Shown here: in pieces, positions 4,446 to 27,460 of the stretch
How positions within the stretch are numbered: the first letter of the stretch is position 1
Layout: each line of letters opens with the position of its first letter
Source: Hyaloscypha bicolor E
Taxonomy: Eukaryota; Ascomycota; Leotiomycetes; Helotiales; Hyaloscyphaceae
NCBI RefSeq assembly: GCF_002865645.1
Contig: NW_020194628.1
Coordinates: forward strand, 1,922,001 to 1,986,000
Length of the DNA: 64,000 nt
Direction of reading: 5' to 3'
Position numbers and translations under genes: made by a program
Notes under the pieces: model-generated
What the model saw: only the letters and a program-made list of their open reading frames with translations
What the model was told of the DNA's origin: nothing
Databases searched by the model: none

Positions 4446-5633
4446 CTTGCGTTTGTATGCCAGACGACAAGTAGGTGTTGGTGACCTTCAACGAGAGAAT
4501 ATTGTGGCAGTGAAAGGTGGATGTAGAGATCCTAGAGATATTAAAACCAAGATGGTGAGGGGTGTTCGATAGCAACTCTTCGGAAATGAGAGCAGGTGTG
4601 GAGAGAAGATGAGGAGATTGGTGTGGTTTGGAGGGTTCCTGTTGAATTGCTCCTTTCAATGGCGGGCTCCCATGAGACGCAAGTTTAAGATAGCGACTAG
4701 GTCACCTATCCTAGATCTGCAAGGCCTCCAGCTCTTTGTACTCTAGTAAAGGGAGCTTCTCTCGACGTTGTCCCTCGTTTGGAAGCAAGTCACGCGGTCC
4801 ACCTCCCCCGCCGCATCGACCTGCGACCGTCGGCCACTGCGGTCGTCTGTATGCCTCAGATTTTGGATCGGATCTTTCACTCTGGAATGTCTCCTCTGGG
4901 AGCGTGTCGGGGGTATAGGTTGTCGTGTTGACTCGGTGGAGTGCCGTTCGTTTGGGACAGGAATAGAGGATCGCGTGAAATCTGCCAAGTCGTGGAGGAT
5001 GATGGTAGATCACGGATGGGAATTGATTAGGAGGCTAGAGATGACCCTATCAGCACCAACGTGGCCGAACAAAGGCTGCCTGGGAAATTTCTGGGGGTTG
5101 AGATGTTACAAGATACGTAGTCGAGCAGCCGAGGCGAACACACTTGATGGATTCACGGACCGTTGGAGTTGGCTCTTGCGTAGATGGAACTGTAGGATGC
5201 TTATCGTGATGGAATGTTGCTTTTTGGACGAATGACAGTTGGTGACAGTGTAGAATTCCTTCTTCAATCAGATGCATCAAACTGAGTCGAATCGGACGAA
5301 ATGAGTGATGTCTGGGGACCTGCCGGGTAAAGGTAGCCCCGGAATGCAGGGATGTGCCCAATCAGGTCAGGGCTGGCTGGAAGTGCGTCATGGACATCGA
5401 AGAGTCACAATTGTATTTTTTTGTACTGTAGTTTTGTTTTCAAGATGGCTGCAAAATCAGGCATGTTTGCTATGCTGACTGGTTTTGCTTGCTTGGCAAA
5501 CACACATCCGTTGCTTTGGTGTTTTGCTTGGAGAGCTTCACCATTTTCATCTCATCTGCTCGCATGTCAATTGCCACTGAATTCTAAAGTTCACTCCGTC
5601 TTTGGAGCAATTGACCAGTGACTGGAATATGCA
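4446..5633. other. 1.2-kb intergenic region
   Basis: Overlapping short open frames on both strands (for example around 4711-5013 and 5352-5621) have atypical composition and no family resemblance. The left part is the promoter and leader of the minus-strand gene starting at 4445; the right part is the 3' flank of the esterase gene. Confidence 0.4.
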
Positions 5634-6911
5634 TTAGTAATACAACCACATCAGCATATGAGTAACAGTAACGTACGGGAAAATCCATGAAGGATTGTCC
5701 AGGGGTTCAACTGCCCATTCCTTTCCTACCTGTTCCCAGGAAATCAGAATCAGCATACTTCTTTCAGGATGTTCTAAGAGCTGCTGGACATGCTACAACC
5801 AGTACTCCGAGAACTTGGGACTCACCAAGGGCAAGAGCTTGTCCAAGAAGACCTTGTAGCCATCGCCAGTAAGATGCAGACCGTCCACTAGGAGGTTCCG
5901 GAGTCCTTCGTCATCACGCTTCTCACATTGTCCCACATACGTTGGGGTCAACCTAAGTCGTGCGTCCATCAAAGCCTCCCAGAGGTCCACTAGTACTACT
6001 TTTCTATCCTCGTGCTCTCTCGCAACCTCGCGAACAACGTCGGCATATTGAGCCGTGACTTCTTGGTGTCGAGTGACAGAACCGTAACCCTTCTTCAAGT
6101 CCAATTCCTGCTTCCAGATAATCGGAGTCAGCATACTTCCATGAGATATTCTTAGGAGTAGAATGTCCCAGGAGCTGCTGGATATTGCTACAAGAGAGAT
6201 TAATAACCTGAGAAGTTGGGACTTACCTCCAGATGGACCTCATTGATGGGAGGTGGAGTGACCAGGAAAATGGTTGGACTGTGAACGGTTATTGAAGAAT
6301 GGTTGAGAATTGTCTTCAGATTTTCCCGGTATATCTGCAATGGGACATGTTGACTGGTCGGACCGTCTTTGAGACAGGCGTCGTTGGCACCGAAGAGAAT
6401 GAGCTTGTTGCAATTAGAATGGAAACGTAAAATAGAATGTATCGATAGCGACAGTGAAAAAATGAATAGCTGTGCTTGAGCTATGGACCGATATTGTCCC
6501 AGAGACAATTTACGAATTTAACAGAAGACTTTTCAAACTTACAAGATAATCCACTTTAGCACATGAAGCCGATGGAATGAGATCTTGAAGAATGACCAAG
6601 GCGTGGGCCGTATTGTATCCGCTCTGAATGAATGTCAGTCTCGACGAGACAAAAAGAAATGAGTGGACGATTTACCAAACCCCGGTTGATGACATCGAGT
6701 CTCCGCTGGCAGTCTATTAATCATCAGAGGCTTGCAGTCCAGAAACGAATTGATAGAGATGGGAGCCAGCGAGAGTGCATTCGAGATATCCCAATAGAGA
6801 CTCACGTTCTTCCAGCCCAGCACCAAAGCAAAAGCCATCACGCAAGAGACTGCTGAATTGAACGATGGAATCTCCTATTAGAAGGAACTGGGGATATCTC
6901 TTGGCCGCCAT
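5634..6911 (-). CDS. IAH1: SGNH/GDSL esterase, isoamyl acetate hydrolase-like
   Basis: Six exons (6806-6911, 6676-6713, 6543-6623, 6227-6403, 5826-6107, 5634-5729) join in frame to 259 codons, the normal size for IAH1 esterases. SGNH blocks are visible: 'LLIGDSIVQFS' near residue 11 (nucleophile Ser), 'NRGLSGYNT' near residue 46, 'LILFGANDACL' (block III Asn) and 'DGLHLTGDGY' (catalytic Asp and His). The family hydrolyses short-chain acetate esters such as isoamyl acetate. I chose Met at 6911 because family members begin with a short lead into 'YPQFLL'; an in-frame Met at 6956 is possible. The last two introns (5730-5825 and 6108-6226) are related in sequence to each other and to an intron at 25.8 kb. 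Confidence 0.88.
5730..5825 (-). repeat. Introner-like intron, copy 2
   Basis: This 96-nt phase-0 intron in the same gene starts GTGAGTCCCAAGTTCTC, contains GTCCAGCAGCTCTTAGAAC and ends TATGCTGATTCTG...GGAACAG. It is about 20 nt shorter than the other copies, mostly from deletions between the conserved blocks. Confidence 0.75.
6108..6226 (-). repeat. Introner-like intron, copy 1
   Basis: This 119-nt phase-0 intron of the esterase gene starts GTAAGTCCCAACTTCTC and ends GAAGCAG. It shares its 5' end, a central TCCAG...CTGGGA hairpin-like block and the branch region TATGCTGACTCCG with 5730-5825 and 25823-25944. Confidence 0.75.
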
Positions 6912-25639: not shown

Positions 25640-26092
25640 CAAACCGCCAATATCCCTTTGCAACTACATGATTGTGTACTTGCATGTCAACTCCTCGCGC
25701 CCACTGTAGTATCATACGCACAGGCTCATACCAGCGATTTCCTTCCACATTTTCTCAAGGAGCCCATTAAAACGCTCATATCACAGGGCTATGCTGCATA
25801 TCAACCTTTTCCGGCTGGAGTGGTAAGTCCTAACTTCTCCGGGTATTGATACCTCTTGGAGCAAGCATTGTCCAGGAGCCTCTGGAACATTCTACTCCCA
25901 AAGACACCTCAAGACGTATGCTGACTCCGTTTTATTTGGAATAGGTAACTGTTGAAGGCATCATTGATTCCTGGGGTCCAGGAGTACTCATATCCAATTC
26001 CAAATCAGGAGTGCCTTGTGGCGAAAAGACCAAGTCGGTATTGATAGGAAGAGGCGCCATCACCTGTGTTCCAAACCAAGACAACAACTGAC
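25640..26092 (+). CDS. Two-exon fragment of an unidentified protein
   Basis: An open frame up to 25822 ('LHDCVLACQLLAPTVVSYAQ', 'GYAAYQPFPAGV') joins in frame, across the 122-nt intron 25823-25944, to 'VTVEGIIDSWGPGVLISNSK' and ends at a TGA near 26092. The excised sequence contains in-frame stops, and the joined product is compositionally normal. I do not recognise the family; the upstream start is not determined (Met at 25658 is possible). Given its neighbours it may be the remains of a metabolic enzyme. Confidence 0.35.
25823..25944 (+). repeat. Introner-like intron, copy 3
   Basis: This 122-nt phase-0 intron starts GTAAGTCCTAACTTCTC, contains TCCAGGAGCCTCTGGA (a perfect 5-bp stem) and TATGCTGACTCCG, and ends GGAATAG. 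It is on the opposite strand and 20 kb from copies 1 and 2, in an unrelated gene. Confidence 0.75.
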
Positions 26093-26404
26093 CACACCCC
26101 TTATATCATTTTGGGCGCTCTTGCGACCTTGCAGCCGACTTACCAACCTTCAGTATTTGGGACAAGCTAACCATTGGAGCTATCTCCGTACAAGAGTCAT
26201 GCCTGTTGGATCCAGCAAAGCGTCGAAAGTCTTCGGAACCGTACCTCGACGTTCTTGGCGCTTGCGATGACTACTGGGACTTGGCAGATCGGTAAATGAT
26301 GTTTCAAGCTGGTCAATACTTTAGTCTCCAGGTCGGCAGCGTATACAATAAGGTTAAAGGCCGCCGACTAAAGACGACGATATTAGAATTATAGAGATTA
26401 CTGC

Positions 26405-27460
26405 ATGATTTCAGAATTCTTCTTCAACCGTGGGGAATTTCGACATTCTGGGAACACTCACAAGGTCAGCGTGAAGAAGGAACCCATTCTCAGTACCGGG
26501 ACGATCAAATCGCCTCATGTCTTGGAGCTCTCTGGTATTGGAAACCCTGACGTCCTGTCTTAAGTCGGTATCAAAAGTCTCGTCGAGAATAAGAGAGTAA
26601 GGGAAAATTTCCAGGACCACCCTCTCATAGGTACTGTGTACGAGCTTGCTCCAGGAGAAGCATCACTGAACATGCTCCAAGATGTGCAAGAAGTGCAAAA
26701 AGCTATGGCTGAGTATAGCACTACGAAATCTGGTCTCCTCGCAAGCAACGGCTCTGGTAACTGCTTCACAAGCTATGCCGCCCTTGCTTTCCAAGAAGAA
26801 ATTACTACTATAAAGCAATCCATCATCTCGCCTGATACACCAACTCGTCATTTAGAAACAGCGAAGGGACTTCTAGCGGATGCACTCGCAAGTCCAGACC
26901 ACGCAAGTCTCCACATAGTCTACGTCGCAGCAACCGTAAACATCGACGCTTTCCCGTCTCAATCCAGTATGTTGAAGCCTCCAGAGAGCATGAAAGGCAA
27001 ACCGGGTATCAGCTTCACCATCGCTGCAGAGCGTCCGCTTTCTGTAGGCTCCTGCTACATACTCAGCAGCAACCCCGAAGACGACCCGCGATTGACCCGG
27101 CGTACCTCTCGCATCCCGCTGATGCTGAGGATAGAACTTGCGGAGAAGATGCGGACGACTAGTCCATTCAGTGAGAAAATCAAACAAAGAATATTCCCGC
27201 CTGAGAGCGTGGAATTGGGGAAGAAAAAGGAGAGGCTGGCGTATTTGAAAGGTGCTGTTACCACGTAGTATCACCCGAATGGTACCGCGGCGATGGGTCC
27301 AGAAGGGCAGGGAGCTTGCGATGAGCGGTTGAGAGTGAGAGGGTGCAAGGGCTTGAGAGTCGTGGATGCGAGTATCATTCCGGTGCATGTCAGTGGAAAT
27401 ATTGTGAGTATGGTGTACGCGATTGCTGAAAAGGGAGCGGATCTGATCAAGGAATATTGA
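26405..27460 (+). pseudogene. GMC oxidoreductase, C-terminal remnant with two nonsense codons
   Basis: The frame reads the GMC (glucose-methanol-choline) C-terminal half. It contains 'ILSTGTIKSPHVLELSGIGNPDVL', 'VRENFQDHP' and the end 'YHPNGTAAMG...RVVDASIIPVHVSGNIVSMVYAIAEKGADLIK', with the catalytic His of the first block and the conserved Asn of the last. TAA at 26561-26563 and TAG at 27266-27268 interrupt the frame; both fit CAR-to-TAR changes, and no frameshift occurs. The FAD-binding N-terminal half with the GxGxxG motif is not found upstream. The gene is dead. Intact relatives oxidise alcohols or sugars, often in lignocellulose or secondary metabolism. Confidence 0.8.

Follow-up and report, generated by a model that had tools for sequence, protein, structure and literature searches.

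The origin of new introns is a long-standing question. Introner-like elements (ILEs) have been described from Dothideomycetes (PMC4457414); in the pertinent passages of that study the copies of families regarded as active, in F. fulva and Z. tritici, are 98–99% identical, and D. septosporum is given as a case of diverged ILEs that may no longer be active. From Xylariales, sister stwintrons that carry near-terminal repeats have been described (PMC8469720, PMC12403724, in their accessible portions), and ascomycete introner families are without TIRs or TSDs according to the available text of a survey (PMC9860276). No literature report of introners in Leotiomycetes, Helotiales, Hyaloscypha or Meliniomyces was found, within the accessible portions of PMC3510045 and PMC4457414 and with the species table of the survey left aside; the same portions of PMC4457414 list Meliniomyces variabilis among the compared genomes. 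Here we describe an introner family in Hyaloscypha bicolor E that is, provisionally, new to Leotiomycetes. Our overall reading, to which we assign a probability of roughly 0.8, is that this family spread by an RNA route during a past burst in Hyaloscypha and its relatives.

The window, by which we mean the whole analysed stretch of 64,000 nucleotides, lies within contig G000:C51. A preliminary description, made from the sequence, had proposed that two introns of a minus-strand esterase gene (i1 and i2) and a third in a plus-strand gene (i3) are copies of one element; their coordinates, strands and lengths (Table 1) proved to be as claimed, and the common 17-nt start with one or two changes, the central block and the TATGCTGA block are all present. 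In a window-only search i1 and i3 show 77.5% identity over nearly their full length (E about 1e-19), and i1 and i2 align in short pieces only, i2 being a shortened relative. Profile searching confirmed that the window holds these three copies and no others, and Rfam returned no match at the gathering threshold within it. Once i1 and i2 are removed together with four ordinary introns (92, 52, 139 and 55 nt), the minus-strand gene does encode a GDSL/SGNH protein, colinear with the esterase of Hyaloscypha finlandica at 94.5% identity, the closest among the best 120 of 203 homologues; the stop position was set by inspection. Two properties ascribed to the three introns hold in part: all are phase 0, but the family is not (phases 0, 1 and 2 in 40, 16 and 30 of 86 copies), and that they are longer than most introns here is partly true within the esterase gene. 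The host of i3 is of doubtful identity, its spliced frame of 114 aa having no Pfam match and lying upstream of GMC-oxidoreductase-like frames interrupted by a stop. The stop-broken GMC-oxidoreductase-like frame downstream of i3 (26387–26944 of the window) resembles a decayed gene.

Table 1. Introner copies, parts of copy i1 and host gene in the window (positions are those of the window)
Feature	Position	Strand	Details
Host gene, GDSL/SGNH esterase (IAH1-like)	5591..6911	-	255 aa, seven exons, six introns, two of them introners
Introner copy i1	6108..6226	-	119 nt, one hairpin unit, phase 0, HLE/ELDLKKG junction of esterase
5′ near-terminal inverted-repeat arm of i1	6205..6221	-	intron nt 6-22
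Central 33-nt hairpin unit of i1	6158..6190	-	intron nt 37-69; bounds by inspection
3′ near-terminal inverted-repeat arm of i1	6112..6128	-	intron nt -5 to -21
Introner copy i2	5730..5825	-	96 nt, internally shortened, phase 0, KLLPL/VGKEW junction of esterase
Introner copy i3	25823..25944	+	122 nt, within short open frame, identity doubtful

On a genome-wide scale (82.04 Mb, 76 contigs) a search with the 119 nt of i1 gave 44 matches, a few of which are fragments belonging to the same copy, with a best non-self E of 7.7e-21; as a control, two ordinary introns of the esterase gene matched only themselves (one match each). Pattern searches with three parts of the element, allowing up to three mismatches and controlled by the reversed pattern, yielded 90 matches against 15 for the 5′ end, 64 against 0 for the 3′ end and 38 against 0 for the hairpin. 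Chance or shared splice signals alone were rejected as an explanation on the strength of the 44 i1 matches, the 0–15 matches of the control patterns and the single-copy ordinary introns. Pattern and DNA matches merge into 131 sites, 41 of which are supported by the 5′ pattern alone. The subsequent profile search covered 100 stretches, 23 regions with 5′-pattern support only being left out, and returned 113 rows at E of 1e-5 or better; these represent 111 distinct copies, two rows being antisense shadows of self-complementary copies (L093 on the plus and L036 on the minus strand). Complete donor-to-acceptor copies account for 87 of the 113 rows when the predicted start may be up to 3 nt from a GT or GC donor and the predicted end up to 8 nt from an AG. 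Capture–recapture with the three patterns puts the number at 110–126 copies, an estimate that is biased low. Beyond the ends of the element the likeness stops, and flanks are not conserved past the first exon base or two. Overall, i1, i2 and i3 are almost certainly members of one introner (introner-like element) family with more than 100 copies. The introner-like nature put forward in the preliminary description is borne out by the many genome copies bounded by splice sites and by empty orthologous sites in relatives; neither of the outcomes that it had named as contrary, few genome copies or old introns at orthologous sites of distant species, was encountered.

Several loci have unusual arrangements. 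L086 (G000:C53:313184-314082), among the densest clusters seen, contains three same-strand copies in about 750 bases (202-320, 421-565 and 832 onward, the last truncated where the stretch ends). At L048 (G000:C1:953832-954912) a full copy (421-570) is followed head to tail by a partial one (571-693), possibly a tandem or nested insertion. L036 (1909-2062), L053 and L093 give profile matches on both strands at one place, a sign of how self-complementary some copies are, and the L036 copy at 1909 resembles an inverted-repeat derivative.

The copies fall into length classes of 117–122, 149–153 and about 184 nt, a ladder of about 119, 152 and 185 nt that exists because the 33-nt hairpin unit occurs once, twice or three times. 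Among 87 copies one unit is found in 48, two in 31, three in 5 and none in 3, and neighbouring units are spaced 33 nt in 29 of 41 cases. Single-unit copies include both first-unit and second-unit variants, which is suggestive of repeated unit loss. Identity within and between the unit-number classes is alike (0.77–0.80) and a tree required 29 unit-number changes (a figure without a shuffled control); for these reasons we do not divide the family into subfamilies.

Close to both ends of the consensus lie two arms, nt 6–22 and nt −5 to −21, which are complementary at 13 of 17 positions, a value equalled by 8 of 5000 shuffles; an internal loop of 4 nt divides their 6+7 pairs, and the inverted complement is set back by 5 nt from the donor end and by 4 nt from the acceptor end. 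The mean best match in single copies is 9.7 of 17, with 9, 11 and 9 in i1, i2 and i3 (the 5′ arm of i1 being degenerate), and the four ordinary esterase introns reach 7–8 of 17. By inspection the 3′ arm overlaps a branch-point-like CTGAC, located at −24 to −20 of the consensus, and the stem is therefore possible only with the branch site free.

Folding supports a structured consensus, and the consensus RNA is predicted to be able to close into a panhandle. The short form folds at −29.2 kcal/mol (z −3.2) and the long form at −46.9 kcal/mol (z −4.6). Folding of the copies, also suggested at the outset, had a divided outcome: the consensus beats its shuffles, but single copies do so only slightly (mean z −0.88), with z below −1 in 35 and above 1 in 6 of 87; for i1, i2, i3 and the most consensus-like long copy z is −1.0, −0.7, −0.3 and −1.2, and many shuffles fold equally well. 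A structured founder whose copies decayed free of selection would look like this, with a strong consensus fold and weak copy folds. Covariation as proof of the panhandle was rejected: pairs between the arms are kept in 67.4% of cases versus 66.7% with the 3′ ends shuffled (244 of 1000 shuffles are as good), RNAalifold predicts no pairs on an 18-copy short alignment, and its prediction for ten long forms departs from the panhandle, joining the 5′ arm to the first hairpin unit and folding the 3′ end into a small separate hairpin.

The family copies look like working introns. Donors read GTAAGT in 56 of 87 copies and GC in seven, so that a noticeable minority may rely on GC-AG splicing; acceptors are TAG in 51, CAG in 25, AAG in 9 and GAG in 2. 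With the copy removed, the open span across the junction measures 400 nt or more in sense in 47 of 86 cases and in antisense in 11, compared with 15.9 expected from random cuts (drawn from 740 cuts). The sense span is longer than the antisense span in 65 of 86 copies (Wilcoxon p 5e-9) and not longer in 21, and 66 of 86 copies carry stops in all three frames. By codon usage, too, sense scores above antisense, in 86 of 112 rows (with the shadows counted), in 70 of the 87 full copies and in 56 of 79 rows outside the training loci. From the 46 copies with long open spans, 20 spliced products were tested; in 15 the junction falls inside a Pfam match, the one in L019 scoring under its cut-off. The host genes belong to unrelated families and include an oxoprolinase, a helicase, a PLP enzyme, amino-acid and sugar transporters, a mitochondrial carrier, Tdp1, NmrA, P450, NADAR and SDR proteins and others; most copies sit in such genes in sense orientation. 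Six loci with a weak sense signal (L057, L065, L055, L049, L087 and L101) were examined frame by frame, and in the first three a sense open frame beside the insert resembles, by eye, known enzyme or transporter families. Reading frames and homology thus predict that family copies are spliceable.

Positions that are new, in the sense of being absent from relatives, were found at four sites, namely i1, i2, L070 and L084. Intron presence was read from metagenomic proteins, each predicted as one uninterrupted open frame of its contig; some JGI, ENA and LGN proteins may stem from contigs derived from RNA, and annotated NCBI proteins are uninformative on intron presence (3 of 119 at L070, many at L084 and the esterase). 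Because the homologue sets include such annotated proteins, which are silent on introns, cases on long contigs weigh most, and the contigs of P0030 (11.5 kb), P0023 (61 kb), P0123 (8.2 kb), P0127 (16.3 kb) and P0130 (15.6 kb) are longer than the mRNA. At L070, 119 of the best 120 homologues (of 602) span the junction without a gap, the exception being P0224 (98.6% identical), whose frame reads into the introner. The same number, 119 of the best 120 (of 1214), do so at L084, a gene whose product shares 98.2% identity over 225 residues with a protein of Hyaloscypha bicolor E; here the frame of the exception, P0325 (99.3% identical), reads out of the introner.

For the esterase, 112 of the best 120 of 203 homologues cross the i1 site and 105 the i2 site with no gap within 4 residues; the remaining homologues, most of them of low identity, have a gap there, stop close by or lie outside the site. 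The comparison of these sites with relatives, a further check proposed at the outset, found i1 uninterrupted in the metagenomic proteins P0030, P0023 and P0035, and i2 uninterrupted in P0023 and others. P0023 thus has both sites empty and P0030 the i1 site. In P0035 (89.6%) the i1 site is empty and the i2 site reads into a long-form introner, a pattern of i1 absent and i2 present that would fail if its contig of 1,090 bases were partly spliced RNA. The H. finlandica esterase (P0001) contains one extra Q exactly at the i1 junction, from which we infer that i1 is present in that species with its last codon annotated as exon. The annotation of P0001 probably took an acceptor 3 nt early (AAG/CAG tandem acceptor). 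Judged from these sequences, i2 would be the older and i1 the younger insertion, both gained within the Hyaloscypha lineage.

The age of the family does not bear out the ongoing intron gain that the preliminary description had envisaged. When the ends of 84 copies are compared, pairwise identity peaks at 92.5% and has a median of 78%, and the median identity to the consensus is 85.5%, well short of the figure given above for active ILE families. As no compared pair exceeds 93%, a past burst is indicated rather than ongoing gain; it looks like a burst within the radiation of Hyaloscypha and relatives that is not visibly active now.

How the copies spread is a matter of weighing routes, and we lean towards RNA-mediated copying. 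Each copy would bring its own donor, branch-point-like element and acceptor, so that, as reading frames and homology suggest, it would be removed wherever it lands in sense in a transcribed gene. The excised intron RNA would then serve as copying intermediate: the near-terminal complementary arms could clamp both its ends together, and the RNA would be inserted seamlessly between two exon bases, by reverse splicing into DNA or an R-loop or by RNA-templated break repair, and be turned into DNA, after which the copies would decay neutrally. Sites are also clustered, with 10 pairs within 5 kb, nine of them same-strand, versus 1–2 expected (one pair, C3 near 1,085,400, may be a single long copy), and with five pairs versus 0.5–1 expected when 5′-only sites are omitted. 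Seamless, sense-biased and repeated insertion into the same genes suits a transcription-linked RNA route; seamless insertion and sense bias can also come from selection after random insertion. Reverse splicing and RNA-aided break repair both fit the data, and a DNA transposon fits less well.

Break repair can also be taken as the entire explanation, folded or double-stranded excised intron RNA being captured as filler during double-strand-break repair, as for the Hypoxylon sister stwintrons. The near-terminal complement and the seamless insertion agree with that published model as laid out in the available parts of PMC8469720 and PMC12403724. The exon flanks are non-random, however, with G as the last exon base in 59 and as the first exon base in 63 of 87 copies, which suits reverse splicing better, although selection for good splice contexts could also yield G flanks; we consider capture by break repair possible and on balance unlikely.

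Still less probable, in our view, are MITE-like introners, in which a transposase cuts and pastes the element via its inverted ends and sense copies survive by splicing. The consensus does have inverted complementary ends, and most non-ascomycete introner families bear such signs (PMC9860276, available text); in addition, repeats that span the junction, intron bases included, show a small excess, from which we draw no conclusion: their mean is 2.47 nt, against 2.35 (sd 0.03) after swapping of the downstream flanks, and they reach 4 nt in 20 copies, 5 in three and 6 in one. Against this, exon-to-exon 4-mers match in none of the 87 copies (shuffles 0.26), in a test that covers exon-to-exon repeats of at least 4 nt and with which a TSD of 2–4 nt inside splice-site bases is compatible; the 12-nt flanks share a longest word of 3.09, against 3.02 in shuffles. 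Moreover, the complement begins inside both ends, both splice sites lie within the element, and the copies are biased to sense. That these are old introns, alike through gene duplication or by chance, could at most appeal to i1 and i2 sharing one gene and is dismissed as next to impossible in view of copies in unrelated genes, the single-copy ordinary introns, the 0–15 control matches and the sites that are empty in relatives.

Three known systems resemble the Hyaloscypha family most closely. With the ILEs of Fulvia fulva, Dothistroma septosporum and Zymoseptoria tritici, as portrayed in the accessible portions of PMC4457414 and PMC8469720, it shares repeated introns in unrelated genes, seamless integration, a symmetric or stable predicted structure and some genes with two insertions. 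It differs in its host, which belongs to the Leotiomycetes (Helotiales), in a median identity of 78% as opposed to 98–99% in active ILEs (PMC4457414, same portions) and in its 33-nt hairpin unit, present one to three times; the likeness is one of description rather than of sequence. The sister stwintrons and cropped sister introns of Xylariales (Hypoxylon, Xylaria; NTIRE-10) have in common with it near-terminal complementary arms, the lack of a TSD, a coding-strand location and new positions, as far as PMC12403724 and PMC8469720 were available. Unlike them, and again by description and not sequence, the Hyaloscypha elements are single canonical introns with G-rich exon flanks and arms of 6+7 pairs that overlap the branch-point-like element; on inspection for a nested second intron ([D1,2] stwintron), the consensus shows one donor and lacks a central AGT junction with a donor behind it. 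Introners with DNA-transposon features (Micromonas and others; Gozashti et al. 2022, in its available part) are likewise intron-generating repeat families with inverted ends, whereas the Hyaloscypha family is without an exon-to-exon TSD of at least 4 nt.

Set against the two ascomycete traits given in the available text of PMC9860276, the family agrees in having no TSD (exon-to-exon, at least 4 nt) and departs in its 13/17 complement, which is near-terminal and weak in single copies. This complement is relevant to two issues: the published statement that inverted repeats are absent from ascomycete introners, and the question whether fungi gain introns through RNA. It is tempting to speculate, and we do so tentatively, that a near-terminal stem is what makes fungal introns mobile, that this Leotiomycete family and the Xylariales stwintrons converged on clamped ends as a substrate for RNA insertion, and that the 33-nt unit is a freely variable spacer. 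The fold predicted for the long forms, with its other partner for the 5′ arm, lowers the likelihood of this idea. With more than 100 copies, datable empty sites and a simple structural signature, the Hyaloscypha family provides a test case for the origin of introns outside Dothideomycetes and Xylariales.
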